Positions 1,489 through 13,635 of a stretch of 14,494 nucleotides of DNA are shown one piece after another (position 1 is the first letter of the stretch; each line of letters starts with the position of its first letter). The DNA lies in contig CALATK010000190.1 of the NCBI GenBank assembly GCA_937891805.1, positions 1-14,494 of the forward strand, given 5' to 3'. The notes beneath the pieces were generated by a model, which made no database searches, had not been told where the DNA came from, and was given only the letters and a program-made list of their open reading frames with translations. This DNA is from an uncultured Fibrobacter sp. Its GTDB lineage: Bacteria; Fibrobacterota; Fibrobacteria; Fibrobacterales; Fibrobacteraceae. The translations under genes were made by a program, and so were the position numbers.

Positions 1489-2994
1489 ATGCGTATTACT
1501 TTCTTAAATCCTCCGTTCCATCCGATGTTCAGTCGCGAGTCCCGCAGCCCGTGCGTGACCAAATCGAGTACACTTTACTGGCCCATGTTCCTGAGTTACG
1601 CCGCCGGCACTGCCGAAGCGGATGGCAACGAGATTCAGCTGATTGATAGCCCCGCCATGGAGCTTGACCTGCCCAAGACGCTGGAGGGCATCAAGAAATT
1701 TGACCCGGCACTGGTCGTCTGCAGCACCAGCACACCTAGCATTTTGAACGACCTCAAGGTGGTTCACACCATCAAGGATACGCTCCCGAACGTGAAGGTC
1801 GCCATCATGGGTACCCACGCGACGGCTGAACCGCTGGAATCCATGGAGATGGAACCCTCCCTCGATTTCGTGATCATCGGCGAGGCGGACTACACCTGCC
1901 GGAACCTCGCGAGGAGCCTGCGGGGCGACGGTGTTCCCGTGAACCAGATTGCGGGCCTCGCCTTCCGCAAGGCGGACGGCACCACCGACTTCCAGCCCGA
2001 GGGCCCGAAAATCGAGAACCTGGACGAGCTCCCGTGGGTCTCGAAGGTTTATCGCAAGCACCTTTACAGTTGCTACAAGAAGTATTTCTACGGCGCGAAC
2101 CTGAACCCGCTGATTGTAATTTTGAGTGGCCGCGGCTGCCCGAACCGCTGTAGCTACTGCGTGATTCCGCAGACGCTGAACGGCCACAAGTTCCGCCGCC
2201 GCACGCCCAAGGACGTGGTGGACGAACTGCAGTACATCAAGGAAAACTTTGACGACCTCGGCGAAGTCTTCTTCGAAGACGACACGTTCACCGCAAGCCA
2301 CGAGCATGTGCGCGAAATCTGCAACCTGATTCTGGAACGCGGCCTCAAGATTACGTGGAGCTGCAACGCCCGCGCCGATGTTCCGCTGGATTTGCTCAAG
2401 CTGATGAAGAAGGCGGGCGGCCGCGAGATGTGCGTGGGTTTTGAAAGCGCAAGCCCTGTGGTTCTCGAGAACATCCACAAGGGTGTGAAGAACACCGACA
2501 AGGCAATCGAGTTCACGAAGAACGCCCGCAAGGCAGGCCTGCTGGTGCACGGCTGCTTCATGGTGGGCAACCCGGGCGACACTCCGGAAACCCTCCGCAT
2601 GACGCTGGACTACGCCAAGAAGTTGAACCCGAACACCGCGCAGTTCTACCCCATTATGGCGTACCCCGGAACCGAGGCCTACAAGGAAGCCCTCGAGAGC
2701 GGGGCATTACAGACAAAGGATTACAATCAGTGGCTGGACAAGGACGGGTTCCACCGCACCACCATCCAGCGCGGTGAACTCAGCAGCCAGGCACTTGTAG
2801 ATTTCTGCGACAAGGCCCGCCGCGAGTTCTACCTGCGTCCGAGCTACATATTCCGTCAGGGAATCATGGCCCTCAAGAACCCCCGGGAACGCTACCGCGT
2901 GATGCGTGGATTCGGCACGCTGGTGAAGCACCTGTTTAGGAAGCACGGGCAGCTCGCCCCTGTGGCGCGCCAGGCCCCGACGGTGAAAGAGTAA
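1489..2994 (+). CDS. B12-binding domain radical SAM protein
   Basis: A 501-residue class B radical SAM enzyme. The N-terminal ~150 residues look like a cobalamin-binding Rossmann domain (MRITFLNPPF, LIDSPAMELD, VVCSTSTPS, MGTHATAEP, DFVIIGEAD). The cluster motif CPNRCSYC (Cys217, Cys221, Cys224) should bind the 4Fe-4S cluster that reductively cleaves S-adenosylmethionine. Downstream strings typical of the radical SAM barrel are EVFFEDDTF, GREMCVGFESAS, FMVGNPGDTPETL and QFYPIMAYPGTEAY. Members methylate or rearrange unactivated carbons in lipids, cofactors or natural products; the substrate cannot be read from sequence or from neighbours. I chose ATG 1489 over an in-frame TTG at 1477 because MRITFLNPP is the usual beginning of the domain. 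The gene stands alone on its strand, uses noticeably more G/C-ending codons than the gene before it, and runs into a dispersed repeat three bases after its stop. Confidence 0.9.
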   Translation: MRITFLNPPFHPMFSRESRSPCVTKSSTLYWPMFLSYAAGTAEADGNEIQLIDSPAMELDLPKTLEGIKKFDPALVVCSTSTPSILNDLKVVHTIKDTLPNVKVAIMGTHATAEPLESMEMEPSLDFVIIGEADYTCRNLARSLRGDGVPVNQIAGLAFRKADGTTDFQPEGPKIENLDELPWVSKVYRKHLYSCYKKYFYGANLNPLIVILSGRGCPNRCSYCVIPQTLNGHKFRRRTPKDVVDELQYIKENFDDLGEVFFEDDTFTASHEHVREICNLILERGLKITWSCNARADVPLDLLKLMKKAGGREMCVGFESASPVVLENIHKGVKNTDKAIEFTKNARKAGLLVHGCFMVGNPGDTPETLRMTLDYAKKLNPNTAQFYPIMAYPGTEAYKEALESGALQTKDYNQWLDKDGFHRTTIQRGELSSQALVDFCDKARREFYLRPSYIFRQGIMALKNPRERYRVMRGFGTLVKHLFRKHGQLAPVARQAPTVKE

Positions 2995-2995
2995 C

Positions 2996-3087
2996 GAGTT
3001 GTTAGTTTTCAGTCCTCAGTATTTAATTTGGCACCAAAGGTGCGATTATAAGGACTCACAACTGACTACTCAAGACTCACTACTCAT
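2996..3087 (+). repeat. Dispersed hairpin repeat, copy A
   Basis: The whole gap between two convergent stop codons is one repeat unit. Its core runs AGTTTTCAGTCCTCAG, a TAATTTGG box, then the hairpin GCACC-AAA-GGTGC (3031-3043), then CGATTATAAG and a tail of degenerate ACTCACAACT-like decamers ending ACTCATT. A second copy lies in inverse orientation at about 11833-11930. Roughly nine of ten core positions agree, and the stem differs by a compensatory change. The hairpin lacks a strong T-run, so terminator function is uncertain. Confidence 0.75.
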
Positions 3088-4293
3088 TTACCGTCCGGCG
3101 AACTGGTCGCCTGATTTAATTTCCGTTTCCTTCGAGCCGTTCAAATTCACGAGACGGCTAGGGTCGTAACGCATATTTCGAGCCAGGCCATCGCGGAGCG
3201 CGTGCAACCTGTCGAAAAATTCCGCCGGCTCTTGAGCCGTAAGCAAGGTCTGCCGAACCTGCATAGCGGCATCGTCGTTACCATCGTTCAGAACATGGAT
3301 CCTATCGCCTTCGGCTCCAGGATGACATTCCTGTGGGACAGCATTCCTTTCGTCTAAACAGAACCCCTTGCAGAGTCTTGCCGCCAGCTGCTTGAGGCGG
3401 CCCAGCGCGCCCATTTCCGTAGAACCGTCTTCCAGTTTGAACTTGTAGTAAAGCGGAAACACGTCCAAAGCATCTACCGCAGAAATTTCCTTAGGGGCTA
3501 GACCTTCCCAGGCGTCGGCAATCTGGCCAAACAACCAGGGGTTGTGCATGGCGCCACGCCCGATGGACACGCCGGAAACACCATAGTTCTCAATACGGTC
3601 AAAAGCGGTCTCCACACTGTTCACGTCGCCGTTCCCGATTACAGGAATCTTCGCTACGGCGGCCACCTTCCCTATCCAGTCCCAGTCGGCAAGGCCGTTG
3701 TAGCCTTGCAGGCGAGTCCGTCCGTGGACGGTGAGCAATTCTACACCCTCGCCTTCGGCAATCTGCAAAGTCTCCAGCACGTTGATACTTTCACTATCCC
3801 AGCCGATACGGCACTTGAGGGTAAGCGGCATCTCCGGGCAAGAACGGTCCAATGCCGCGCGGACCTCGTGCAGGATTTCCTGCAGGCGGCGCAGGTCCCG
3901 AAGCAGGCCCGAGCCGCTCCCCTTCCCCGCCACCTTCGGGGCGGGGCATCCGGCGTTGACCTCTATGAACTCCGGATGGAGCTCCAGCGCGATTTTCCGG
4001 GCGGCTTCCGCCATCTTGTCCGGAAACCTCCCGAAAATCTGGATACCGAAGGGACGTTCTTCCGGAAAAAACTTCAGCTGCTTGTGGCCGTCCAGCCTAA
4101 AGATGGCGTCACCGTCGGTAGGCACGAACTCCGACACCAGAAGGCCCATGCGGTTGCCCGACAGCACCCGGCAGAGCCTGCGGAAAGGCGCATCCGTCAC
4201 CCCGTCCATAGGGCTGAGGATCGTATTGGGAAAAATCTCCCTGTCCCGGAGCCTAAAAGACGTCCTTTTCGGCTTTTTCACAACTTTCAACAT
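3088..4293 (-). CDS. tRNA-dihydrouridine synthase (Dus family)
   Basis: This flavoenzyme family reduces uridines in the tRNA D-arm with NADPH. The TIM barrel begins NTILSPMDGVTDAPFRRL (from residue 23). The catalytic loop EVNAGCPAPKVAGKGSGSGL places the general-acid cysteine at Cys116. FMN-contacting motifs follow: LTLKCRIGW (Lys160), TVHGRT (His190), IGNGDV (220-224) and SIGRGAMHNPW (from 243). The helical C-terminal domain starts near LGRLKQLAARLCKGF. At 401 residues it is longer than the usual 310-350. Most of the excess is residues ~312-340, which are encoded by a palindromic dispersed repeat kept in frame, plus a C-terminal tail (KETEIKSGDQFAGR). ATG 4293 is preferred to GTG 4302; the only Shine-Dalgarno-like sequence is a weak GTGGTAAGA. 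It is divergent from the HU gene and convergent with the radical SAM gene. Subfamily (A, B or C) is not settled by eye. Confidence 0.92.
   Translation of the reverse strand: MLKVVKKPKRTSFRLRDREIFPNTILSPMDGVTDAPFRRLCRVLSGNRMGLLVSEFVPTDGDAIFRLDGHKQLKFFPEERPFGIQIFGRFPDKMAEAARKIALELHPEFIEVNAGCPAPKVAGKGSGSGLLRDLRRLQEILHEVRAALDRSCPEMPLTLKCRIGWDSESINVLETLQIAEGEGVELLTVHGRTRLQGYNGLADWDWIGKVAAVAKIPVIGNGDVNSVETAFDRIENYGVSGVSIGRGAMHNPWLFGQIADAWEGLAPKEISAVDALDVFPLYYKFKLEDGSTEMGALGRLKQLAARLCKGFCLDERNAVPQECHPGAEGDRIHVLNDGNDDAAMQVRQTLLTAQEPAEFFDRLHALRDGLARNMRYDPSRLVNLNGSKETEIKSGDQFAGR
3294..3331 (-). repeat. Palindromic dispersed repeat inside the dus gene
   Basis: On the coding strand the segment reads GTCATCCTGGAGCCGAAGGC followed by GATAGGATCC. 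It folds as ATCCT...AGGAT (3299-3303 with 3319-3323) around an inner GCC-GAA-GGC. The form matches a widespread bacterial repeat of the GTCATCCTGAGCGAAG type, normally intergenic. Here it encodes part of an insertion, QECHPGAEGDRIHVL, in the Dus C-terminal domain with no frameshift. That it is repeated elsewhere in this genome is inference; no second copy is in the window. Confidence 0.55.
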
Positions 4294-4834: not shown

Positions 4835-5519
4835 CGTCTTCTGTCAAGAACCGCCAACCGCCCGTGCCCAGAGACCTGTCCAGCAGCACCGGTCCAATGG
4901 CGACCCGCTCCAGGGTCTCCACGTGATTGCCGACGGCGGCGAACATGCGGCGCACCTGATGGTACAGGCCTTCGCCGATGGAAATGACCACAGAGCCGTT
5001 CTCTACGGAAATCTCCTTGGCCTCCACCGGGCGGCGTTCGTCCTTCAGCATCACACCCTTCAGCAGGTCGCTTTTCTGGCCTTCGGTAAAGGGCCGGGCC
5101 AGAGTCACGCGGTATTTTTTCAGCAGGCCCTTCTTGGGACTTTCCACCTTGTGGATAAAGTCCCCCTGGTTCGAAAGCAAAATCAGTCCCGATGAATTGG
5201 CGTCCAGGCGGCCCACGGTCTGGATTCCCATGGCCGTAAATCGGTCCGGTAGCAGGCTATAGACCGACGGATAATCGCGAGCGTTGTGGCTGCACTCCAC
5301 ATCTACGGGCTTGTACAGCATCACGTAGAGCTTTTCCACCGTTGGGATTTCTTCGCCGTTTACCGTGATGAATTCGGGCCGTTCCTTGAGTTCCAGAAAA
5401 GGGTCTTCCACCACGTTCCCGTTCAGTTCCACCAGACCCATGCGGACCAGGGCGCGGGATTCCTTGCGGCTACCGAAGCCGATGGATGCAAGCAGTCGTT
5501 CCACAGTCAAAGCAGGCAT
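4815..5519 (-). CDS. rsuA: 16S rRNA pseudouridine(516) synthase RsuA
   Basis: RsuA converts U516 (E. coli numbering) of 16S rRNA to pseudouridine. An N-terminal S4 RNA-binding domain occupies residues 1-60 (MPALTVERLLASIGFGSRKE, VRMGLVELNG). The catalytic domain follows, with YVMLYKPVDVECS and the active-site motif GRLDANSSGLILLSNQGDF, where Asp106 is the expected nucleophile. Near the C-terminus EGLYHQVRRMFAAVGNHVETL is the RsuA/RluB/RluE signature, and the YHQV form fits RsuA. Length 234 is typical. Its ATG shares one base with the stop of the preceding gene (TAATG), indicating translational coupling at the end of the envelope operon. No Shine-Dalgarno was assigned. It is a translation gene among envelope genes, so its position probably reflects co-transcription rather than a shared pathway. 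Confidence 0.93.
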   Translation of the reverse strand: MPALTVERLLASIGFGSRKESRALVRMGLVELNGNVVEDPFLELKERPEFITVNGEEIPTVEKLYVMLYKPVDVECSHNARDYPSVYSLLPDRFTAMGIQTVGRLDANSSGLILLSNQGDFIHKVESPKKGLLKKYRVTLARPFTEGQKSDLLKGVMLKDERRPVEAKEISVENGSVVISIGEGLYHQVRRMFAAVGNHVETLERVAIGPVLLDRSLGTGGWRFLTEDEIKALS

Positions 5520-6391
5520 TATTCCTCCACCAGCCAGTTCAGGATTTTCGTACGCACGTAGCCCAGTTCAGGGAGTTCTCCGGTCTTGAGAACCGCTGCA
5601 CGGCGACGCCAGAATACAAAGGCGAATATGCCGCCATATACGGAACTGACCGTCAAGAACCAAACCGTTCTGCACAAATTAATGGTCGCCTCGATATGGC
5701 CTGCCGACTGCAAGTCATGATCGCGGGTCCAGTCCATCCGCAGGTCCCAATCTTCTAGAAACGGATAGCCCTTGAGCATGGCGTTCAGGGCAGCTCCATA
5801 GCCCATGGACTTGTAATCCATGCGGATCCCTTCTACGTAGCAATCCCTGAAACGCACTTGGAATACGTTTAAAAAACTGTTCAGGATTTTCTTGCTGTAA
5901 CGCAGGCCCCGTTCGTCAATGTCCGGAGTCAGCAGCAGGGTCCAGAATTCCCGTTCCGTCAGGCTATTCCTAGCTTCAGGCTCGGAGCTCGGGGGTTGTA
6001 GTTCGGGGGTTGAAGTTTCTGGCTCAGGGGTCGTGTTTTGTGGCTCAGGTTCGGTGACCGATGTTTTGGGAGCGGGACTCGGAATGTCCGCAGCTGTCTC
6101 GGTCCGGGCACTTGCGTCCTTTTGAGGCTCTGAAGTTGAAGTTTCAGGCTCGGGGCTCAGCGCAGTCTCCTCCACAGGCCTTTCTTCTGCAGGTTGCTCC
6201 GGTTCTGGTTCCTGCTCCTCCTTCGCCTTCCATTCTTTCGTGTAGTTCCAGAGTCTTTTCTTGAACACGAACAGGTCCGCCACGAATCCCGATTCCGTCA
6301 GGTGAAAGTCCAGCCGGAACACCACAGGGAACAGCAAGACAACTGCTGCGATGATGGCGACAAGAATCAGGACCAGGCTGAAGGCGCTCAT
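5519..6391 (-). CDS. Membrane protein with Pro/Glu-rich linker, unknown function
   Basis: A 290-residue protein not assigned to a known family. Residues 3-25 form a transmembrane helix (SLVLILVAIIAAVVLLFPVV). A short beta-like stretch (FRLDFHLTESGFVADLFVFK) is followed by a low-complexity linker of about 85 residues (58-145) made of Pro, Glu, Ser and Thr with repeated EPETST and PEPE units. A globular part follows (FWTLLLTPDIDERGLRYSKK, DCYVEGIRMDYKSMGYGAAL, EDWDLRMDWTRD). A second hydrophobic segment is TVWFLTVSSVYGGIFAFVFW at about 242-261, with a basic tail. The beta strand after the first helix and the Y-G-AA pattern recall the DUF2953 type of membrane protein, a weak resemblance only. 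It is coupled at both ends: its ATG overlaps the mlaC-like stop (TAATG) and its stop overlaps the rsuA ATG. It probably acts at the inner membrane with the upstream envelope genes. Confidence 0.75.
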   Translation of the reverse strand: MSAFSLVLILVAIIAAVVLLFPVVFRLDFHLTESGFVADLFVFKKRLWNYTKEWKAKEEQEPEPEQPAEERPVEETALSPEPETSTSEPQKDASARTETAADIPSPAPKTSVTEPEPQNTTPEPETSTPELQPPSSEPEARNSLTEREFWTLLLTPDIDERGLRYSKKILNSFLNVFQVRFRDCYVEGIRMDYKSMGYGAALNAMLKGYPFLEDWDLRMDWTRDHDLQSAGHIEATINLCRTVWFLTVSSVYGGIFAFVFWRRRAAVLKTGELPELGYVRTKILNWLVEE

Positions 6392-6982: not shown

Positions 6983-8338
6983 TTAAAATCTGGCTTGATA
7001 GTCTTTTAAACTCAACCCCATCCTGGCAATGAGTTCCGCCACTTCCACATTGTACTTGCACACCGCAAAAAGGTAATCTTTCTGCAAGGTCACGTTCTGG
7101 GTGTAGGCGCTTACCAGTTCGCCCGTCTTGGACTTGTCCAGGTCGTACTGCATGGCGGCCCCCTTCAGAATGGCTTCGGAGGCCTTGAGGCTTTCTTTCA
7201 GGGCTTCCATCTTCTCCTGGGCGGCGACCACCTGGTAATACTGCTCTTCGGCCTTGGCCATCAGGCCGTCCGCCGCATAGGCTTCTTTCATTTTCAGGCC
7301 ACGGTATTCTACCCGGGCTTCGCGATAGCCAGCCCACTGCTTCCAGAAATTCAGCCGGTACCTGAGCCCGATACCGATAACGCCCGAAAGTTTGTTCACG
7401 GCGTCTTCGGCAAAGGCATCCTTCTGCATCACCTTGCGGTTTCCGGCCCAGCTTTTTACGTATTCCACTTCACCCAGCACAAAGAACTCCGGCGCGAGCT
7501 TTGCCTCCGCCAAATCCATCTGGGTCCGTTTCGCGATAAGCCCCGCCGAAAGCTGTTTCAGTTCCGGATTGCTCTGCAAGGTGAGCAACCGAACCTCTTC
7601 CAGAAGGGGCAACTTTTCCTTGCGGGGGACAAGCACCGTATCTTCTGCGGCAAAGACATCGCCATCCTGCAGGTTCAGCGAAAAGCGGATAGCCAGTTGC
7701 ACCCGTTTCATGCCCAGTTCCGCCTCGGTCACGCCCTCCTTGACCGTATGCATTTTCGCCTTCAGGTTCAAAAAGTCCATCTGGCTCACATTGGGATCGT
7801 CGTCGTCCAGGGCTTCTTCCATCTGCTCGTAGGCTTCATCTACACGCTTCTGGGCATCGGCGGCCAAGCGTTTCATTTCAAGGGCCAGCAGGTAGTTGTA
7901 ATAATAGGTCTGCAGTTCCACTTCTTTTCGCAAGAGGGCGTTTTCGATGGCAAAGGACTTCTGCTGCACATCCGCTTCCAGGGCCCGCTTGCCGGAGCGG
8001 TACTGCCCCAAGTTCAGGGGCTGCACGAACTTGGCCTGCACTCCCCAGAAAGGGCCCATCTTGGAAAAGTCATAGACATCAACCGTATCGCCCCAGTTAT
8101 CTACAGATTCCTTAAGGCCGGGGGCAGGGCCCACCATCATGGAAACGTCCAGGGTGGGCAAAATGGCTTCGGCCTTCAGGCTCTGGATTTTTTCCTTTTT
8201 CGATTCGGTTCCAAATCGGGCTTCTGCAATTTGCGGGTCATTTGCAAGCCCAGCCTCGACAAAACGCAAACAGTCGTAACGGACTTCTCCCGCTACGGCA
8301 ATGCCTGCAAGCATCGTCAAGAGCAAAAACTTTTTCAT
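6983..8338 (-). CDS. TolC-family outer-membrane protein
   Basis: A 452-residue precursor with signal peptide MKKFLLLTMLAGIAVAG. It is rich in long alpha-helical coiled segments: SKKEKIQSLKAEAILPTLDV, ALEADVQQKSFAIENALLRK, VDEAYEQMEEALDDDDPNVS, MQYDLDKSKTGELVSAYTQN. Two outer-membrane-efflux repeats interrupted by strands (FWGVQAKFVQPLNLG; GVIGIGLRYRLNFW) are what a TolC-type trimeric channel-tunnel shows. I chose ATG 8338 because it starts a textbook signal peptide and has AAAGGTGG five bases upstream. The frame stays open upstream to an ATG at 8503, but those 55 codons run through a palindromic element and would bury the signal peptide. No fusion protein or pump gene is adjacent, so whether it serves efflux, protein secretion or another transporter is open. 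mlaC-like follows after 16 bp. Confidence 0.9.
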   Translation of the reverse strand: MKKFLLLTMLAGIAVAGEVRYDCLRFVEAGLANDPQIAEARFGTESKKEKIQSLKAEAILPTLDVSMMVGPAPGLKESVDNWGDTVDVYDFSKMGPFWGVQAKFVQPLNLGQYRSGKRALEADVQQKSFAIENALLRKEVELQTYYYNYLLALEMKRLAADAQKRVDEAYEQMEEALDDDDPNVSQMDFLNLKAKMHTVKEGVTEAELGMKRVQLAIRFSLNLQDGDVFAAEDTVLVPRKEKLPLLEEVRLLTLQSNPELKQLSAGLIAKRTQMDLAEAKLAPEFFVLGEVEYVKSWAGNRKVMQKDAFAEDAVNKLSGVIGIGLRYRLNFWKQWAGYREARVEYRGLKMKEAYAADGLMAKAEEQYYQVVAAQEKMEALKESLKASEAILKGAAMQYDLDKSKTGELVSAYTQNVTLQKDYLFAVCKYNVEVAELIARMGLSLKDYQARF

Positions 8339-8341
8339 CAA

Positions 8342-8501
8342 GGCCACCTTTGGAAATTGCTTTGATGAAAAAAATTTGAGCGAGACCGAGTGCTGGCAGG
8401 AACGAAAAGTGGCGAATACTGGATGTATTTGCCACTTAGAGTGACGAAACAGCACGATGCGTCGCAGCCAAATTTTTGAAAATGAATTTTTAAAGGTGGC
8501 C
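8342..8501 (-). repeat. Palindromic element of ~160 bp before tolC that includes its RBS
   Basis: Outer arms are perfect 10-mers, GGCCACCTTT (8342-8351) and AAAGGTGGCC (8492-8501). Inside, AAATTTG ends face each other across imperfect arms with shared TGCTG blocks. The centre is a 13-bp stem AAGTGGCAAATAC / GTATTCGCCACTT (one G.T pair) with five-base loop ATCCA. On the coding strand the downstream outer arm is the tolC Shine-Dalgarno, so in the mRNA the upstream arm could mask it. The segment has no stop in the tolC frame. The shape suggests a MITE-like or REP-like unit. Confidence 0.65.
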
Positions 8502-8513
8502 ATCAACCTAAAT

Positions 8514-9882: not shown

Positions 9883-11739
9883 TCACCTCTTGGAGAGCGT
9901 CATGTTCATCTTGCATTCAAATTTTTCCGAGGCGGCCAGGGACGATTTCCAGAAAGGATAAACACGAATTCCCTGGAACATCTGGGGGGCCGCCGCCGAA
10001 GACGCACTGAAAATCGGCCCGATAAAGACCGGCGTTGGCGTCTCGAATTCCAGTTCTATGGCGGCATCCAGGCTAGAATCAAAAACCTTGAACTTCTTTG
10101 CATCCGGATAAATGAATGGCTCCCTGCGGTCCCACTTGACCTTGGATCCATCCGCGACAATGCAGGGGCCTTCGCCCGACTCCAAAAGTCCAAGCTCCAT
10201 CAAGGTCCCGAAATAGCAGGGATTTTCCTGATAGGTGGTGTTGGCCACCTCGTAAGCCACTCCTATACGGGGAGACCCGTTGTCAAAGTGCAGTTCCTTC
10301 TTGACCAAGAAAACGCCCTGTTTCTCGCCGACACGGTAGCCCTGCTCTCCGCTCAGCTGCACCTGGGCACTGCCGCTTTCCCGTTTCACCTGGTAATCGT
10401 AATGTTCCAGGAACAGGCGGTCGCGCCCGGCCAACAGCACGCCTATCTGCTCTGTGGTCAAGTCCTCATTGGGCAACAGGCATTCCGCAAGGAATAAAGC
10501 CGGTCCACCGTCATCGTGCCAGGCATTCACCAAATTCACGGCAGGAGTCTTGTGGTTGAGCAACCTGAGGATACCCCCCTGGTAATAATCCACTAGGCAA
10601 GAAATCTCCGGATTTTCCACCCAGATCTGTTTCATGCCCTGAAGCATAAAATCGCTCACGTCTATACGCAGGCCCGAAAAATTCATTCGGGAATCCAGGT
10701 CGTGAGCGGCCTTCTGCAGGTAGCGGAAGCCCCACTGACGCACCTTCAGGCTGCGCATGCCCTCGTCGTCTTGCAGGTTCCGGTAAAAAATCGGCGACAT
10801 GGCGGGCAGAAGTTCCTCGTAGAACTTTTCCAGGTCCTTGCCCTGCAGGTTGCCCTTGCCCCTGTGGAACAGGTTCAGCAGGTCCTTTTGCAGGGTATTG
10901 ATCTCGGGACGCTGCACAAGCATCTCCCGGCAAGTGTTGGCCGCAAAGGGGAGCCCCAGCTTGCGACCCGCAGAAACAAGATTGCTGAGAGCCCCTTCCG
11001 GCTGGAGCTGGTTCACGATATAGCTCACGGGCCAGGTCTGCACCTCGTTCGTCTCTACAAAATCTACCAGACGCTCGAAGAAGCCCACAATTTCTTCGGC
11101 CTGCGGGGGCAAGTCCAGCAGCACCACCACGGGCTTTTCTTCGTGATTGTAGGATTCCGCAATTTCCCGCCAGCGAAGGTCGTCTTCGCCGATAGCCTTG
11201 GAAAGTTCGTCAGAAACAGGAACCACCCGCATCAGGGAGCCCTGGTCTTCGACAGTGAACCACCCCGAAACCGGAGAATTGCGGCCCAGGGCCTCCCGAA
11301 CGGCGGCCTCGCTCACCAGCGCATAGTCAAAGGCGCACTCCTCCAGCACAGAAATCATGCCCATTTCCCAGACCAGGGACGAATTAAAATAACCCTGGGG
11401 TTCCAGGCCCAAGAAGGATTTCAGCTTGGACCGGTGCTTTTTCAACTGGCGGACCTGCAGGTCCTTCGGGAACAGCGGAAGCATGGGGTCGTAATAACCA
11501 CCGCCCAAAAATTCAACAAGACCCTCGTCAACCCCGGCCTTGATTTTACCTATGGACAAGGGCTTCGCCGTCTTCTTCAGCATTTCCATAGTCGGGCCGT
11601 CCATAAAGATGGAGCACTTCACCTTCCGGTAGTTCAGCAAAATCTCGAGACCGTCCGACAGGTTGCGGGCGACGGACTCCAGATTGCCGTAGGCCGTCTG
11701 GGGCGAAAGCTGAAGCAAAAAAGAAACGACGGGTTTCAT
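9883..11739 (-). CDS. GH57-like protein, probably catalytically inactive
   Basis: A 618-residue protein with the layout of GH57 4-alpha-glucanotransferase/alpha-amylase. An N-terminal barrel has VEFLGGGYYDPMLPLFPKD (compare GGFYEPVLPLIPK) and GYFNSSLVWEMGMISVLEEC. A middle helical domain has REMLVQRPEINTLQKDLLNL (compare RNFLVKYPEsNxmHK). A C-terminal beta domain of DUF1926 type has VKKELHFDNGSPRIGVAYEV and MFQGIRVYPFWKSSLAASEK. Key family residues are changed: the N-terminal HNHQP is LSPQT (12-16), the WLTERVW nucleophile position is Ser121 instead of Glu, and the acid-motif DGEKFG region reads DLPPQAE. No signal peptide, so cytoplasmic. It heads the run of seven genes, three bases before the STAS-like gene. 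ATG 11739 lacks a Shine-Dalgarno. The family call is by motif recall from Thermococcus-type enzymes; loss of activity is inference. Confidence 0.75.
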   Translation of the reverse strand: MKPVVSFLLQLSPQTAYGNLESVARNLSDGLEILLNYRKVKCSIFMDGPTMEMLKKTAKPLSIGKIKAGVDEGLVEFLGGGYYDPMLPLFPKDLQVRQLKKHRSKLKSFLGLEPQGYFNSSLVWEMGMISVLEECAFDYALVSEAAVREALGRNSPVSGWFTVEDQGSLMRVVPVSDELSKAIGEDDLRWREIAESYNHEEKPVVVLLDLPPQAEEIVGFFERLVDFVETNEVQTWPVSYIVNQLQPEGALSNLVSAGRKLGLPFAANTCREMLVQRPEINTLQKDLLNLFHRGKGNLQGKDLEKFYEELLPAMSPIFYRNLQDDEGMRSLKVRQWGFRYLQKAAHDLDSRMNFSGLRIDVSDFMLQGMKQIWVENPEISCLVDYYQGGILRLLNHKTPAVNLVNAWHDDGGPALFLAECLLPNEDLTTEQIGVLLAGRDRLFLEHYDYQVKRESGSAQVQLSGEQGYRVGEKQGVFLVKKELHFDNGSPRIGVAYEVANTTYQENPCYFGTLMELGLLESGEGPCIVADGSKVKWDRREPFIYPDAKKFKVFDSSLDAAIELEFETPTPVFIGPIFSASSAAAPQMFQGIRVYPFWKSSLAASEKFECKMNMTLSKR

Positions 11740-11744
11740 GGGAT

Positions 11745-11752
11745 AAAGGATA
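11745..11752 (-). promoter_or_regulatory. TATCCTTT box before the GH57-like operon
   Basis: On the minus strand TATCCTTT ends five bases before the ATG of the operon's first gene, preceded by CTATTTTTAC. No Shine-Dalgarno is present. The same arrangement is seen before the HU, MORN-variant and radical SAM genes. Promoter function is inferred from recurrence of the arrangement. Confidence 0.35.
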
Positions 11753-11760
11753 GTAAAAAT

Positions 11761-11812
11761 AGGGGCTAGGGTCTAGGATCTAGGGGTTAGGATCTAGGGG
11801 CTAGGGACTGGG
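11761..11812. repeat. Degenerate 14-bp tandem repeat
   Basis: About three and a half units of 14 bp: AGGGGCTAGGGTCT, AGGATCTAGGGGTT, AGGATCTAGGGGCT, then AGGGACTGGGG. Units differ at two to four positions. It begins 22 bp upstream of the GH57-like start, so it may flank or overlap the promoter. G-richness on one strand is marked. Confidence 0.75.
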
Positions 11813-11814
11813 GA

Positions 11815-11944
11815 AATGTGGGGTGTGAAATTAGTAATGAGTTGTGAGTTATGAGTTGTGAGTTCTTATAGTCGCGCCTTTGACGCCAAATTATATGCTG
11901 AGGACTGAAAACTGACGACAGATAACTCAACAATGTGGGGTGTG
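11815..11944 (-). repeat. Dispersed hairpin repeat, copy B, flanked by 13-bp direct repeats
   Basis: AATGTGGGGTGTG occurs exactly at 11815-11827 and again at 11932-11944. Between them lie 104 bp that are the inverse of the repeat at 2996-3087, with the same CAGTCCTCAG, TAATTTGGC, hairpin, TATAAG and CTCACAACT blocks when read on the minus strand. The hairpin (11874-11886) reads GCGTC-AAA-GGCGC on that strand. Perfect flanking repeats look like a target duplication or a recombination footprint. Confidence 0.75.
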
Positions 11945-12049
11945 GGGGAAGTCTCCCCCTGATTTCTGTTTCGCCAGGCATTGCCTGAAACAAGGTTGGT
12001 GAGCCTGTCGAACCATCCATCACCCCCTCTCCTAGGGGCTTCGCCCCTA
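11944..12049. repeat. Cluster of three short perfect hairpins
   Basis: GGGGGA-AGTC-TCCCCC (11944-11959), CAGGCA-T-TGCCTG (11975-11987) and TAGGGGC-TTC-GCCCCTA (12033-12049) follow each other within 106 bp. Between the last two, GGTGAGCCTGTCGAACC (11998-12014) resembles the widespread GGTTCGACAGGCTCACC type of interspersed repeat. The last hairpin is followed by AAACCCTTTTTT, so it could act as a weak plus-strand terminator, although no plus-strand gene precedes it. Confidence 0.55.
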
Positions 12050-12228
12050 AAACCCTTTTTTCAACAAATCTCTCCCTCGATGTGTACATTCCCTCGCTCG
12101 CAAAACTCATTTCATTCGATTGCTCTCTCGAGAAGCACACATCTCGGTCAAAAAATAAGCGGTTGGCTCGGGAAATAAATGCTTTTTGTTGGTGAGATTC
12201 GCTTTAGCAGGAACGGTAAGTTACTGCA

Positions 12229-12270
12229 GGCGGAAACTCTTGTGACTGTTAGTCCCTGCGAGTTTCCTCC
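12229..12270. repeat. Inverted repeat with 11-bp arms
   Basis: GGCGGAAACTC (12229-12239) pairs with GAGTTTCCTCC (12260-12270) except for one position; the loop is 20 bases. No T-run follows on either strand, so a terminator is unlikely. It could be an operator or part of the repeat mosaic; no function is assigned. Confidence 0.45.
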
Positions 12271-12286
12271 AAGAAGCCGCACCCCC

Positions 12287-12317
12287 TTGTCATGCCCCGC
12301 TTGACGGGGCATCTCCC
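12287..12317 (+). repeat. Palindromic GTCATGCCCCG-type unit
   Basis: ATGCCCCG (12292-12299), loop CTTGA, CGGGGCAT (12305-12312) form a perfect 8-bp stem inside TTGTCATGCCCCGCTTGACG and the following GGGCATCTCCC. The related form with ATTCCCCG and the identical CTTGA loop lies inside the FISUMP lipoprotein gene at 13071-13091. The pair shows that one repeat family occupies both intergenic and coding positions here. Confidence 0.65.
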
Positions 12318-12330
12318 TTTCATACCATCG

Positions 12331-12363
12331 TAAAAAAGCCCGAAGTCTTTGGAACTTCAGGCT
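12331..12363 (-). terminator. Rho-independent terminator of the FISUMP lipoprotein gene
   Basis: On the minus strand AGCCTGAAGT, loop TCCAAAG, ACTTCGGGCT form a 10-bp stem with one T.G pair, immediately followed by six T. It lies 28 bp after the stop codon. On the plus strand the hairpin is not followed by T, so it works in one direction only. Confidence 0.88.
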
Positions 12364-12390
12364 CATACTCATATTGCCGTAGCAGTTACT

Positions 12391-13635
12391 TTATTCAGAA
12401 TCCTTGACGCAACGGACGGAGAAGTCGCGGTTCTTGTCAACATTGCCCAGTTCCGCATAGTCATTGCAGTAGCCCATATACACGTAGTAGGAGTAGTCGC
12501 TATCGTCCTGCGTGGCACTCCAAAAGTAAGCACCGAGGGTGAAATAGTAGAAGTAACCAACGTTGCCCCTGTAGCCAGCGGGCAGCGCGGAAAAGCCGTA
12601 GGCGTCCTCGTTGGTGATGCCGCTATACGCCCTCCAGTCAGTTTGGGCCTTGAGTTTTTGGCCCGCTGTGGACTCACCGCCCACCGCGGCGAACAGGGCG
12701 TTCCATTCATCCTGCGTGGGAACGTGCCAACCGTCGGGACACACCCCCTGCACGTTGCCCTTGCCCAGGGTGATGCAGTCATGACCGAAGCCACACTCAT
12801 CCTCGAACTTGCCCATGGCGGCAGCCCAGGTATAGAGTCTCCCATACACGGAGCAGTCGCCCGCCATCTTTGTTCCGGCACTTCCGCCGCCACACCAACT
12901 GTTTGCGGTCTGATAGTTCAGATTCTCAGCCATCCACTTCTTGCTGTAGGCGGGGTTTTCGCTTGCGATGGTCACGAACCTGTAGAGTGTGCCGTCTCGG
13001 GTATCACAAAATTGCGTATCGGGATTGTAGGCCAAGTCATCGCAGGATTTTTTTTGTCCGCTGGAGGAAGATTCTCCGTCAAGCGGGGAATGACGAGATG
13101 ATGATTCCGGGGAATGACGAGATGATGAAGACCCCTCGCTACCAGTGTCGGAACTGAACTCCGAGGCGGCGCTAGAGGAAGATTCCTCGTCGACATTTGT
13201 GTCACCTGACAAATCGGGTTCGTCCGATACTTCGCTGCTGAACGGCCTGAACTGCTTCTTGGAGGAACTGGACTGTCTCGACATCAGATCTTCCAGATCA
13301 GCTTTCAGCTTGTCCCCGTCAAGCCCGTCCTTAATTTTTTCAATGATGGCGGAGTCGGTAACAACCACCCACTTGTTCTCTAGACAGGCAAAAAATGAGG
13401 TGTCCACCTTGGCGACTTCTTTTTCACAAATGTCGGGCAGGGTTGCCTCGCTCCCGTAAACGGGAATTTCGCTAGACAAATCGCTGGAACTGTCGTCACA
13501 GGCGGCAAAGACCAGCGGTAGAGAGATTGCCACGCACCACTTCGACAAGCTCAGTGACCTTGTGCTCGCAATGACACGATGTTTCCACGCAGGGCGGCTC
13601 AAGGATGACGCAACAGCAAAATTCTGTTTCTTCAT
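12391..13635 (-). CDS. FISUMP domain lipoprotein
   Basis: A 414-residue surface-type lipoprotein. Residues 1-46 are a long signal peptide ending in lipobox FAAC (lipidated Cys46, then DDSS). A charged spacer follows (EIPVYGSEATLPDICEKEVA, FFACLENKWVVVTDSAIIEK), then a Ser-rich linker with SSSRHSPE/SSSRHSPL repeats around residues 170-188. The FISUMP domain runs from about 200 to the end: DGTLYRFVTI, KWMAENLNY, NSWCGGG, YGRLYTWAAAM, VCPDGWHVPTQDEWNALFAA, GFSALPAGYRG, AYFWSAT and FSVRCVKDSE. ACGGAG six bases before ATG 13635 is a clear Shine-Dalgarno, unlike most lead genes here. Two dispersed repeats form part of the coding sequence, one in the signal peptide (residues ~18-38) and one in the linker. 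A strong terminator follows. Likely anchored in the outer or inner membrane with the domain on a flexible stalk; ligand unknown. Confidence 0.9.
   Translation of the reverse strand: MKKQNFAVASSLSRPAWKHRVIASTRSLSLSKWCVAISLPLVFAACDDSSSDLSSEIPVYGSEATLPDICEKEVAKVDTSFFACLENKWVVVTDSAIIEKIKDGLDGDKLKADLEDLMSRQSSSSKKQFRPFSSEVSDEPDLSGDTNVDEESSSSAASEFSSDTGSEGSSSSRHSPESSSRHSPLDGESSSSGQKKSCDDLAYNPDTQFCDTRDGTLYRFVTIASENPAYSKKWMAENLNYQTANSWCGGGSAGTKMAGDCSVYGRLYTWAAAMGKFEDECGFGHDCITLGKGNVQGVCPDGWHVPTQDEWNALFAAVGGESTAGQKLKAQTDWRAYSGITNEDAYGFSALPAGYRGNVGYFYYFTLGAYFWSATQDDSDYSYYVYMGYCNDYAELGNVDKNRDFSVRCVKDSE
13067..13129 (-). repeat. Palindromic repeat duplicated in the Ser linker of the FISUMP lipoprotein
   Basis: ATTCTCCG-TCAAG-CGGGGAAT (13071-13091) is the same palindrome type as at 12292-12312. 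The half CGGGGAATGACGAGATGATG (13084-13103) recurs at 13108-13127 with a 24-bp period, giving an eight-residue tandem SSSRHSPE / SSSRHSPL in the protein. Frame is kept throughout, so the insertion and its duplication lengthened the linker without breaking the gene. Confidence 0.7.
13520..13583 (-). repeat. Dispersed repeat within the lipoprotein signal peptide
   Basis: On the coding strand CGTGTCATTGCGAGCACAAG, then GTCACTGAGCTTGTCGAAGT and GGTGCGTGGCAATCTCTC form an imperfect palindrome in which GTCATTGC...GCAC faces GTGC...GCAATC. The two halves match widespread bacterial interspersed repeats (TCATTGCGAGC and GAGCTTGTCGAAG types). It encodes HRVIASTRSLSLSKWCVAIS, in the n-region and start of the hydrophobic region. 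Confidence 0.6.

Follow-up and report, generated by a model that had tools for sequence, protein, structure and literature searches.

A probable heptamer-array repeat with a hairpin core in Fibrobacter intergenic spacers, one copy of which lies between 13-bp direct repeats

Cyanobacterial STRR heptamers are dispersed arrays of 7-bp units, in which we know of no hairpin core, and MITEs are short, non-coding, dispersed elements with partly inverted ends. Xanthomonas carries heterogeneous heptameric repeats of the (GGGANTN)n type, which are degenerate and intergenic, are often convergent and differ from strain to strain (PMC4692102). MacGregor 2015 reported TAACTGA direct repeats in Beggiatoaceae, some Cyanobacteria and Bacteroidetes, and relayed the proposal that heptamers favour polymerase slippage (PMC4679880). 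As quoted in both papers, Mrazek 2007 found heptamers to be the commonest class of longer repeats in most genomes, and slippage was proposed as their source (PMC4692102, PMC4679880). Heptameric intergenic repeats are already known, as in Xanthomonas and cyanobacteria; for Fibrobacter, no description of such repeats was found among the matches listed, judged by title and abstract opening, in a literature search whose coverage leaves out most subscription journals.

The locus considered here lies in a stretch of 14,494 nucleotides, all of which was analysed (the window), from an uncultured Fibrobacter. The window is Fibrobacter-like in its genes, as it encodes two proteins with a Fib_succ_major domain and a GH57-like protein that is 98-100% identical, in its best segment, to five Fibrobacter bins. 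An initial annotation had described a 104-bp unit between perfect 13-bp direct repeats and had proposed that these flanks could be a target-site duplication left by a recent movement. The repeats themselves are as described: AATGTGGGGTGTG occurs exactly twice in the window, at 11815-11827 and 11932-11944, with no third site on either strand, and 104 bp (11828-11931) separate the two words. A 13-bp repeat appeared in 0 of 2000 simulations of a 260-bp region under a first-order Markov model, a null that takes no account of 7-bp periodicity. Between 11755 and 11931, the share of matching bases is 54% at lag 7, 55% at lag 14 and 49% at lag 21, against 21-31% at every other lag up to 24, and a coding control (10001-11500) gives 22-31% without a peak at lag 7. 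Words follow one another in this region in the order CTAGGNN, TGTGGNN, TGAGTNN, then, beyond an interrupting core, ACTGANN/ACTCANN (Table 1). Because it sits in 7-bp register in this heptamer run, with arrays on either side, the left 13-mer amounts to two ordinary words of the run, and TGTGG-type words similar to it were also read from the sequence to the left of the unit at five other loci (L011, L013, L012, L006 and L022). The block entered by the right 13-mer, from about 11942, is also matched in G052, G036 and G046, genomes without a match to the unit model. A search of 11815-11960 against plasmid records gave no match.

We therefore propose, with a probability of roughly 0.7, that the feature is a dispersed intergenic heptamer-array repeat of Fibrobacter with a hairpin core inside, that its 13-bp flanks are words of the composite, and that it changes by slippage plus recombination. 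The consensus unit would comprise a core TTATARTCGC NNC loop GNN GCCAAATTA and inward-facing arrays of 7-bp words, within longer composite spacers. With the heptameric intergenic simple-sequence repeats it shares the 7-nt periodicity, the intergenic place and the variation in length by whole units.

Table 1. Positions of the two copies of the unit and of their parts in the window
Feature	Position	Strand	Basis
Copy A of the unit, stop to stop between convergent Radical_SAM/B12 and Dus genes; other spacer in relatives	2996..3087	-	Alignment, domain search, comparison of relatives
Hairpin core of copy A, GCACC/GGTGC variant	3024..3051	-	Alignment A1
Outer heptamer array, words CTAGGNN/TTAGGNN	11758..11812	+	Lag-7 match 0.71 in a 56-bp window from 11761; best other tested lag 0.35
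Left 13-mer AATGTGGGGTGTG	11815..11827	+	Exact word search, 7-bp register
Left arm of copy B, TGAGTNN-type heptamers	11828..11865	+	Lag-7 match 0.77
Hairpin core TTATAGTCGCGCC..GACGCCAAATTATA, one stem mismatch in copy B	11866..11895	+	Alignment A1, consensus fold, genus-wide core pattern (pattern applied to the genus genomes rather than to the window itself)
Right arm of copy B, complementary-type heptamers (ACTGANN/ACTCANN)	11896..11931	+	Lag 7 0.52, lag 14 0.62 over 11894-11931
Right 13-mer AATGTGGGGTGTG, continuing into GGGGGAAGTCTCCCCC, which belongs to a distinct dispersed block	11932..11944	+	Word search, block matches

The Xanthomonas repeats are among the closest known systems: both consist of degenerate 7-bp words, are mostly intergenic with many convergent (inverted) pairs, lie near the ORF on their 5' side and vary in length and sequence between related strains (PMC4692102). 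The same source describes one G-rich word family with G-quadruplex potential, whereas a Fibrobacter genome carries several word families, with other words in other species, and has, unlike what is described there, a conserved and covarying hairpin core between the arms (PMC4692102). The TAACTGA repeats are likewise intergenic heptamer direct repeats, and ACTGATA-type words occur in the Fibrobacter right arms; TAACTGA, however, is an exact word placed mostly just before start codons, related heptamers being rare in the genome studied, while the Fibrobacter words are degenerate and form inverted arms around a core (PMC4679880). Degeneracy and arrangement around a core also set these arrays apart from the 7-nt long simple sequence repeats of Mrazek 2007, as those are summarized in the papers that cite them.

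On the sequences compared, such arrays recur across the genus, built of other words. Ten Fibrobacter genomes were sampled over 400 kb in all; of the 22 periodic segments at lags 4-11 found there, 19 have lag 7, and they are present in 7 of the 10. In the outgroup stretches, lag-7 segments numbered four in G016, one in G015 and zero in G014, G017, G018, G020 and G021, G019 having no readable base. In the unit itself, degenerate heptamers (TGAGTNN, CTAGGNN, TGTGGNN) form arrays that face inward on either side of a hairpin core, and neighbouring array pairs are inward in 17 cases and outward in none, the rest having equal direction; these counts combine 6 of 8 pairs in the 400 kb with 11 of 23 in loci of genome G001 that had been chosen for arrays. 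The words can be nested, as at L013 in G001, where CTAGG, TGTGG, TGAGT, the core, ACTCA, CCTCG and CCTAG follow in this order. Its ortholog in G031, L083, retains mainly outer arms, as if the inner part had been gained or lost at the centre. The string TGAGTNNTGAGTNNTGAGT was counted 111 times in G001, 154 in G025, 190 in G031 and 98 in G068, and is absent from 42 of 61 genomes; a rough estimate of its chance expectation is well below one per genome, and being its own reverse it makes a reversed-sequence control uninformative for these counts.

The unit is dispersed. With copy A as query, 14 places were found in G001, the nearest genome compared; of the other 20 genomes, three gave a single place each. 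The query 11815-11960 found 55 places in G001 at an E value of 1 or less, and many of these match only the arms. The 16 G001 copies analysed are those with a recognisable unit, core and retrieved locus. Fifteen of them have an ORF of 80 aa or more on either side, by mechanical ORF calls, with overlaps of up to 19 bp at L014, L019, L021 and L024; the remaining copy, L001, is bounded on one side by a contig end and is spanned by an 82-aa ORF. Neighbouring genes are convergent, divergent or tandem, and in 9 of the 16 copies the start or end of an ORF is no more than about 20 bp away from the unit. That the unit is dispersed, intergenic and non-coding, and that its presence varies among close relatives, is supported. 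A terminator of convergent genes was considered and rejected, as units are found in every gene orientation, and so was an intrinsic terminator, as no T-tract was read after the core stem. At gathering score, Rfam gave no match in the window or in the relatives L063, L061 and L038, and only rRNA in L064 and L043; the strict core pattern gave none in viral contigs.

Folded to a consensus, 16 copies give a long hairpin of heptad spacing whose inner stem is 5 bp. In the same alignment, cells changed on both sides of a pair number 8, against a shuffle mean of 2.4 and above all 500 shuffles; the covariation score was reached by 13 of 500 shuffles, the number of both-side changed pairs by 40, and the number of pair types, which is not exceptional, by 458. 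When the partner strand is slid, paired cells fall from 93% to 31-46%. A core pattern with fixed outer letters and four free stem positions has 47 occurrences, spread over 14 of the 80 genus genomes, its reversed control giving no match, and the free positions are complementary in 45 of the 47 (12 of 14 distinct sequences) in four pair combinations, one of which, GC/GC, makes up 33. Judged from these alignments and patterns, the core stem covaries. Cores of the same type occur in other species with arms made of different words, such as GGAAGTA (L159) and TTGGTTA (L165). Folding strength differs between copies: L020 with its flanks reaches z -4.95 and copy A as RNA z = -3.42, while copy B, with its stem mismatch, folds weakly (z -1.29 as RNA, -1.63 as DNA). 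Model R1 matches 67 of the 80 genomes, including weak matches, matches at the same place on both strands and at least one, at L167, without the architecture, and the distribution of the unit was taken from the strict core pattern (14 of 80) instead.

Comparison of orthologous loci indicates how the spacers change. Flank segments of 14 G001 copies were matched at 39 places, 30 of which were taken as loci, and L024 was added from G031 alone; 31 orthologous pairs at 13 unit loci were compared between G031, G025 or G068 and G001, with L001, L020 and L021 set aside. The flank segments are 77-100% identical, at least 91% in 35 of the 39, and 86% for L024. Nineteen pairs retain the unit and three have part of it (L018); in eight it is lost or replaced beside conserved genes (L102, L101, L099, L087, L083, L096, L076 and L109), and in one a contig end cuts it (L107). 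Identity (0.11-0.59) and inspection by eye agree on the first seven losses; L109 was called on inspection alone, its computed identity of 0.83 coming largely from shared sequence outside the core; at L099 short arms are left and the core is gone. Within the unit and 60 bp on each side, 20 of 22 isolated indels (2-42 nt, with no second gap within 20 columns) are multiples of 7 (7, 14 or 28), against 2 of 13 outside, counts that are non-independent in that several pairs share one G001 locus. In G025, a composite of about 180-190 bp is almost identical at two loci, beside GH57 and beside a gene here called gene X (L100), with different right ends.

The second copy in the window illustrates a larger change. 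It had been said to fill 2996-3087 in inverse orientation, exactly between two convergent stops and free of 13-bp flanks, and each of these points holds: copies A and B, inverted, are 80% identical over 101 columns (2989-3089 against 11828-11928), the spacer is bounded by a stop at 2992-2994 and an opposite-strand stop at 3088-3090, and the longest word common to its flanks is 4 bp. At this site A, the unit spans the whole interval between the two stop codons in the window and in relative L061. In L062, L063, L064, L071 and L067 the interval holds a different, roughly 180-bp spacer, nearly identical in all five, and L065, L066, L068 and L069 carry parts of it. Outside the site-A spacer, L067 shares only 80-84% identity with the window. 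The comparison identifies site A as a replaced spacer rather than an insertion into a spacer. The alternative spacer is near-identical even though the genes of those genomes are only about 80% identical, so that this spacer, too, may be an element that spreads, or else a conserved RNA.

Under the favoured reading, array length would change by replication slippage of one or two words, and whole spacers would be spread or exchanged by homologous or ectopic recombination, or by gene conversion between similar composites. Recombination between composites as the source of the swaps is suggested by the near-identical composite at two G025 loci; it is read from sequence states, and the named relatives at the window loci are metagenome assemblies, several contigs of which end at repeats. 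Selection on the neighbouring genes would confine change to the spacer, and the core palindrome could persist because a hairpin, in DNA or RNA, is under selection, or because template switching corrects quasipalindromes. The initial annotation had also allowed for slipped-strand or recombination events, an alternative that fits the 7-bp indels and the spacer replacements. Whole spacers differ among relatives whose nearby coding segments are mostly 91-100% identical, and the smaller differences are nearly all multiples of seven bases. What had looked like a transposon footprint becomes a case of rapid, patterned turnover of spacers in a genus important for fibre digestion in the rumen, and the old question of why seven is the favoured bacterial repeat length becomes testable by strain comparison.

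It could be argued, tentatively, that the unit is a selected functional spacer element, such as an mRNA 3' hairpin, a multi-frame stop or a site for a nucleoid or RNA-binding protein, its spread and covariation following from function. The strict core pattern with its covarying stem in 14 of 80 genomes, the closeness of 9 of 16 G001 units to an ORF boundary (about 20 bp or less) and 7-bp words like TGAGTTG, which as read give a stop in every frame, agree with this; but units are lost or replaced between close relatives, all gene orientations are occupied, the T-tract of intrinsic terminators is absent, and template-switch correction can also yield covariation. A more doubtful proposal is that an unrecognised process in Fibrobacter writes and rewrites gene spacers as inward 7-nt arrays around a hairpin core common to the genus, which the core would nucleate, for example by fold-back template switching, new words being placed centrally and older ones pushed outward. 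The nested word order of L013 would result from this.

We consider it unlikely that copy B is a non-autonomous element inserted with a 13-bp target-site duplication, and that relatives with a single 13-mer are true empty sites. None of the 16 G001 copies has a direct repeat of at least 8 bp within its 30-bp flanks, the longest shared word being 3-7 bp, so that the proposed duplication fails for the family. The corresponding lengths are 13 bp for copy B, 4 for copy A, 4 and 5 for the two copies of L061, and 8 for L071, the ortholog of copy B; flanking repeats are thus largely missing from other copies, and closely similar TGTGG words belong to longer heptamer arrays beside other copies (L011, L013), so that both grounds on which the initial annotation would have given up its reading largely apply. 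When flanks were cross-paired among 21 copies (420 pairs), the common word was mostly 4-6 bp and reached 11-13 bp in four pairs. Two of these join related loci (copy B with L071 or L009), and the other two join the unrelated L011 with copy B and with L071, at 11 bp each. The left heptamer run of L011 thus holds 11 bp of the word, in a left flank close to that of copy B, and the right 13-mer is absent there; at L009 the right word is found with one base different and the left word is absent. The 13-bp pair is unusual, yet on this comparison it is made of the family's ordinary words. Constant-length target-site duplications were not found in the 16 G001 copies, and neither were defined terminal inverted repeats, the periodic arms varying and having no sharp common ends (some rows of alignment A1 were trimmed shorter by hand); in both respects the unit differs from MITEs.

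The exact pair does occur elsewhere. The left neighbour, gene X, is common to L009, L100, L105, L107 and L154. At L154, in another species, the unit lies between both exact 13-mers, and L105 has the unit with an exact left 13-mer and one mismatch in the right. Age or exchange could account for a flanked unit common to two species, and recent movement is doubtful because that other species has the unit with both words. Three relatives have one 13-mer and lack the unit: in L063 (RUG831) the GH57 side is joined to a single exact 13-mer; in L180 (G037) one exact 13-mer is preceded in tandem by a degenerate copy, AATGTAGAGTGCG; and in L181 (G078) the 13-mer has a single mismatch and the contig ends there. 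L178 and L179 have neither unit nor 13-mer in the stretch examined; the reading covered five of eight outgroup junctions, all but L183-L185. A duplication at this one locus is conceivable because of these three relatives. Their single-13-mer states are predicted by duplication, and deletion between the 13-mers or a recombination junction would explain them as well. At least one empty state may be such a junction, since the RUG831 contig L107, which ends beside gene X, breaks off inside the left part of the unit, so that L063 may represent a recombination junction. L071, moreover, carries the unit with an altered left flank, and the GH57 locus has the unit in G025 and lacks it in G001, with no duplication seen by eye at the junction. 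As a general warning, what looks like an empty site with one copy in a relative need not be a pre-insertion state and can have arisen as a recombination junction. At L009, L100 and L182 a REP-like insert on the left takes the place of the left word. The right side of the gene-X locus in G001 (L009) matches window positions 12105-13313 at 98%; in the window, therefore, the GH57 gene is joined to the sequence that lies after gene X in G001. Across 11740-12105, the GH57 gene is joined to the side of the Fib_succ_major gene, which follows gene X in L009, and this join is possibly a rearrangement at repeats or a chimeric one. GH57 adjoins 5S rRNA in L064 and L043, and also 23S in L043.

REP elements, which are presented as GTAG/CGTC-tagged (PMC3733652), resemble the unit in being short dispersed extragenic palindromes, and a REP-like palindrome moved by a RAYT/Y1 transposase would match a short intergenic palindromic core in tens of copies; Y1_Tnp genes are indeed present in some Fibrobacter (G052, G037). 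This origin is very unlikely: no Y1_Tnp was found in G001, G025 and G031 (81-84% complete) and only one, with an internal stop, in G068, these four being among the genomes richest in unit matches (the equally rich G070 and G078 lay outside the search). The repeat is defined by its extended periodic arms as well as by the palindrome, no GTAG or CGTC tag was seen at the palindrome foot in alignment A1, and the genomes searched gave no clear cognate Y1 transposase, points in which the unit differs from REP elements. Assembly artefact, in which collapsed or chimeric joins at repeats would produce both flanks and replacements, is hardly credible: the named relatives are metagenome bins with several contigs ending near repeats, but independent bins agree in their spacer states (the window and L061 against five relatives at site A), 7-bp indels recur in three genomes, and 7-bp arrays are also present in the near-complete, few-contig genomes G004, G005, G060 and G066.

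Other repeats occur in the window. A 160-bp element at 8342-8501, with ends GGCCACCTTT/AAAGGTGGCC, has ATCAA on both sides (8337-8341 and 8502-8506); it is present in L061, L062 and L071 and absent, with a single ATCAA, in L063, L064, L065, L067 and L068, a call that does not extend to L066 and L069, which the anchor did not resolve. It has 23 matches in five genomes at 82-100% identity, its strict end pattern being found only in three orthologous copies among 20 loci, with similar, diverged ends in eight others, and it appears to be a better transposition candidate than the 11815-11944 unit. A block of about 215 bp at 12053-12275 has many copies, about 73-90% identical, across genus genomes, including genomes without unit-model matches, and no Rfam match in the window. 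Repeats at 5972-6158 lie inside a Pro/Glu/Thr-rich coding stretch (ORF 5519-6391), and the relatives L061 and L062 have REP-like GTCATCCTCACGAAAGTGAGGATCC hairpins in the corresponding stretch. Finally, 12286-12318 and 13065-13128 hold inverted repeats of the GTCATGCCCCGC.. type and a direct repeat, CGGGGAATGACGAGATGATGA, spaced 24 bp.
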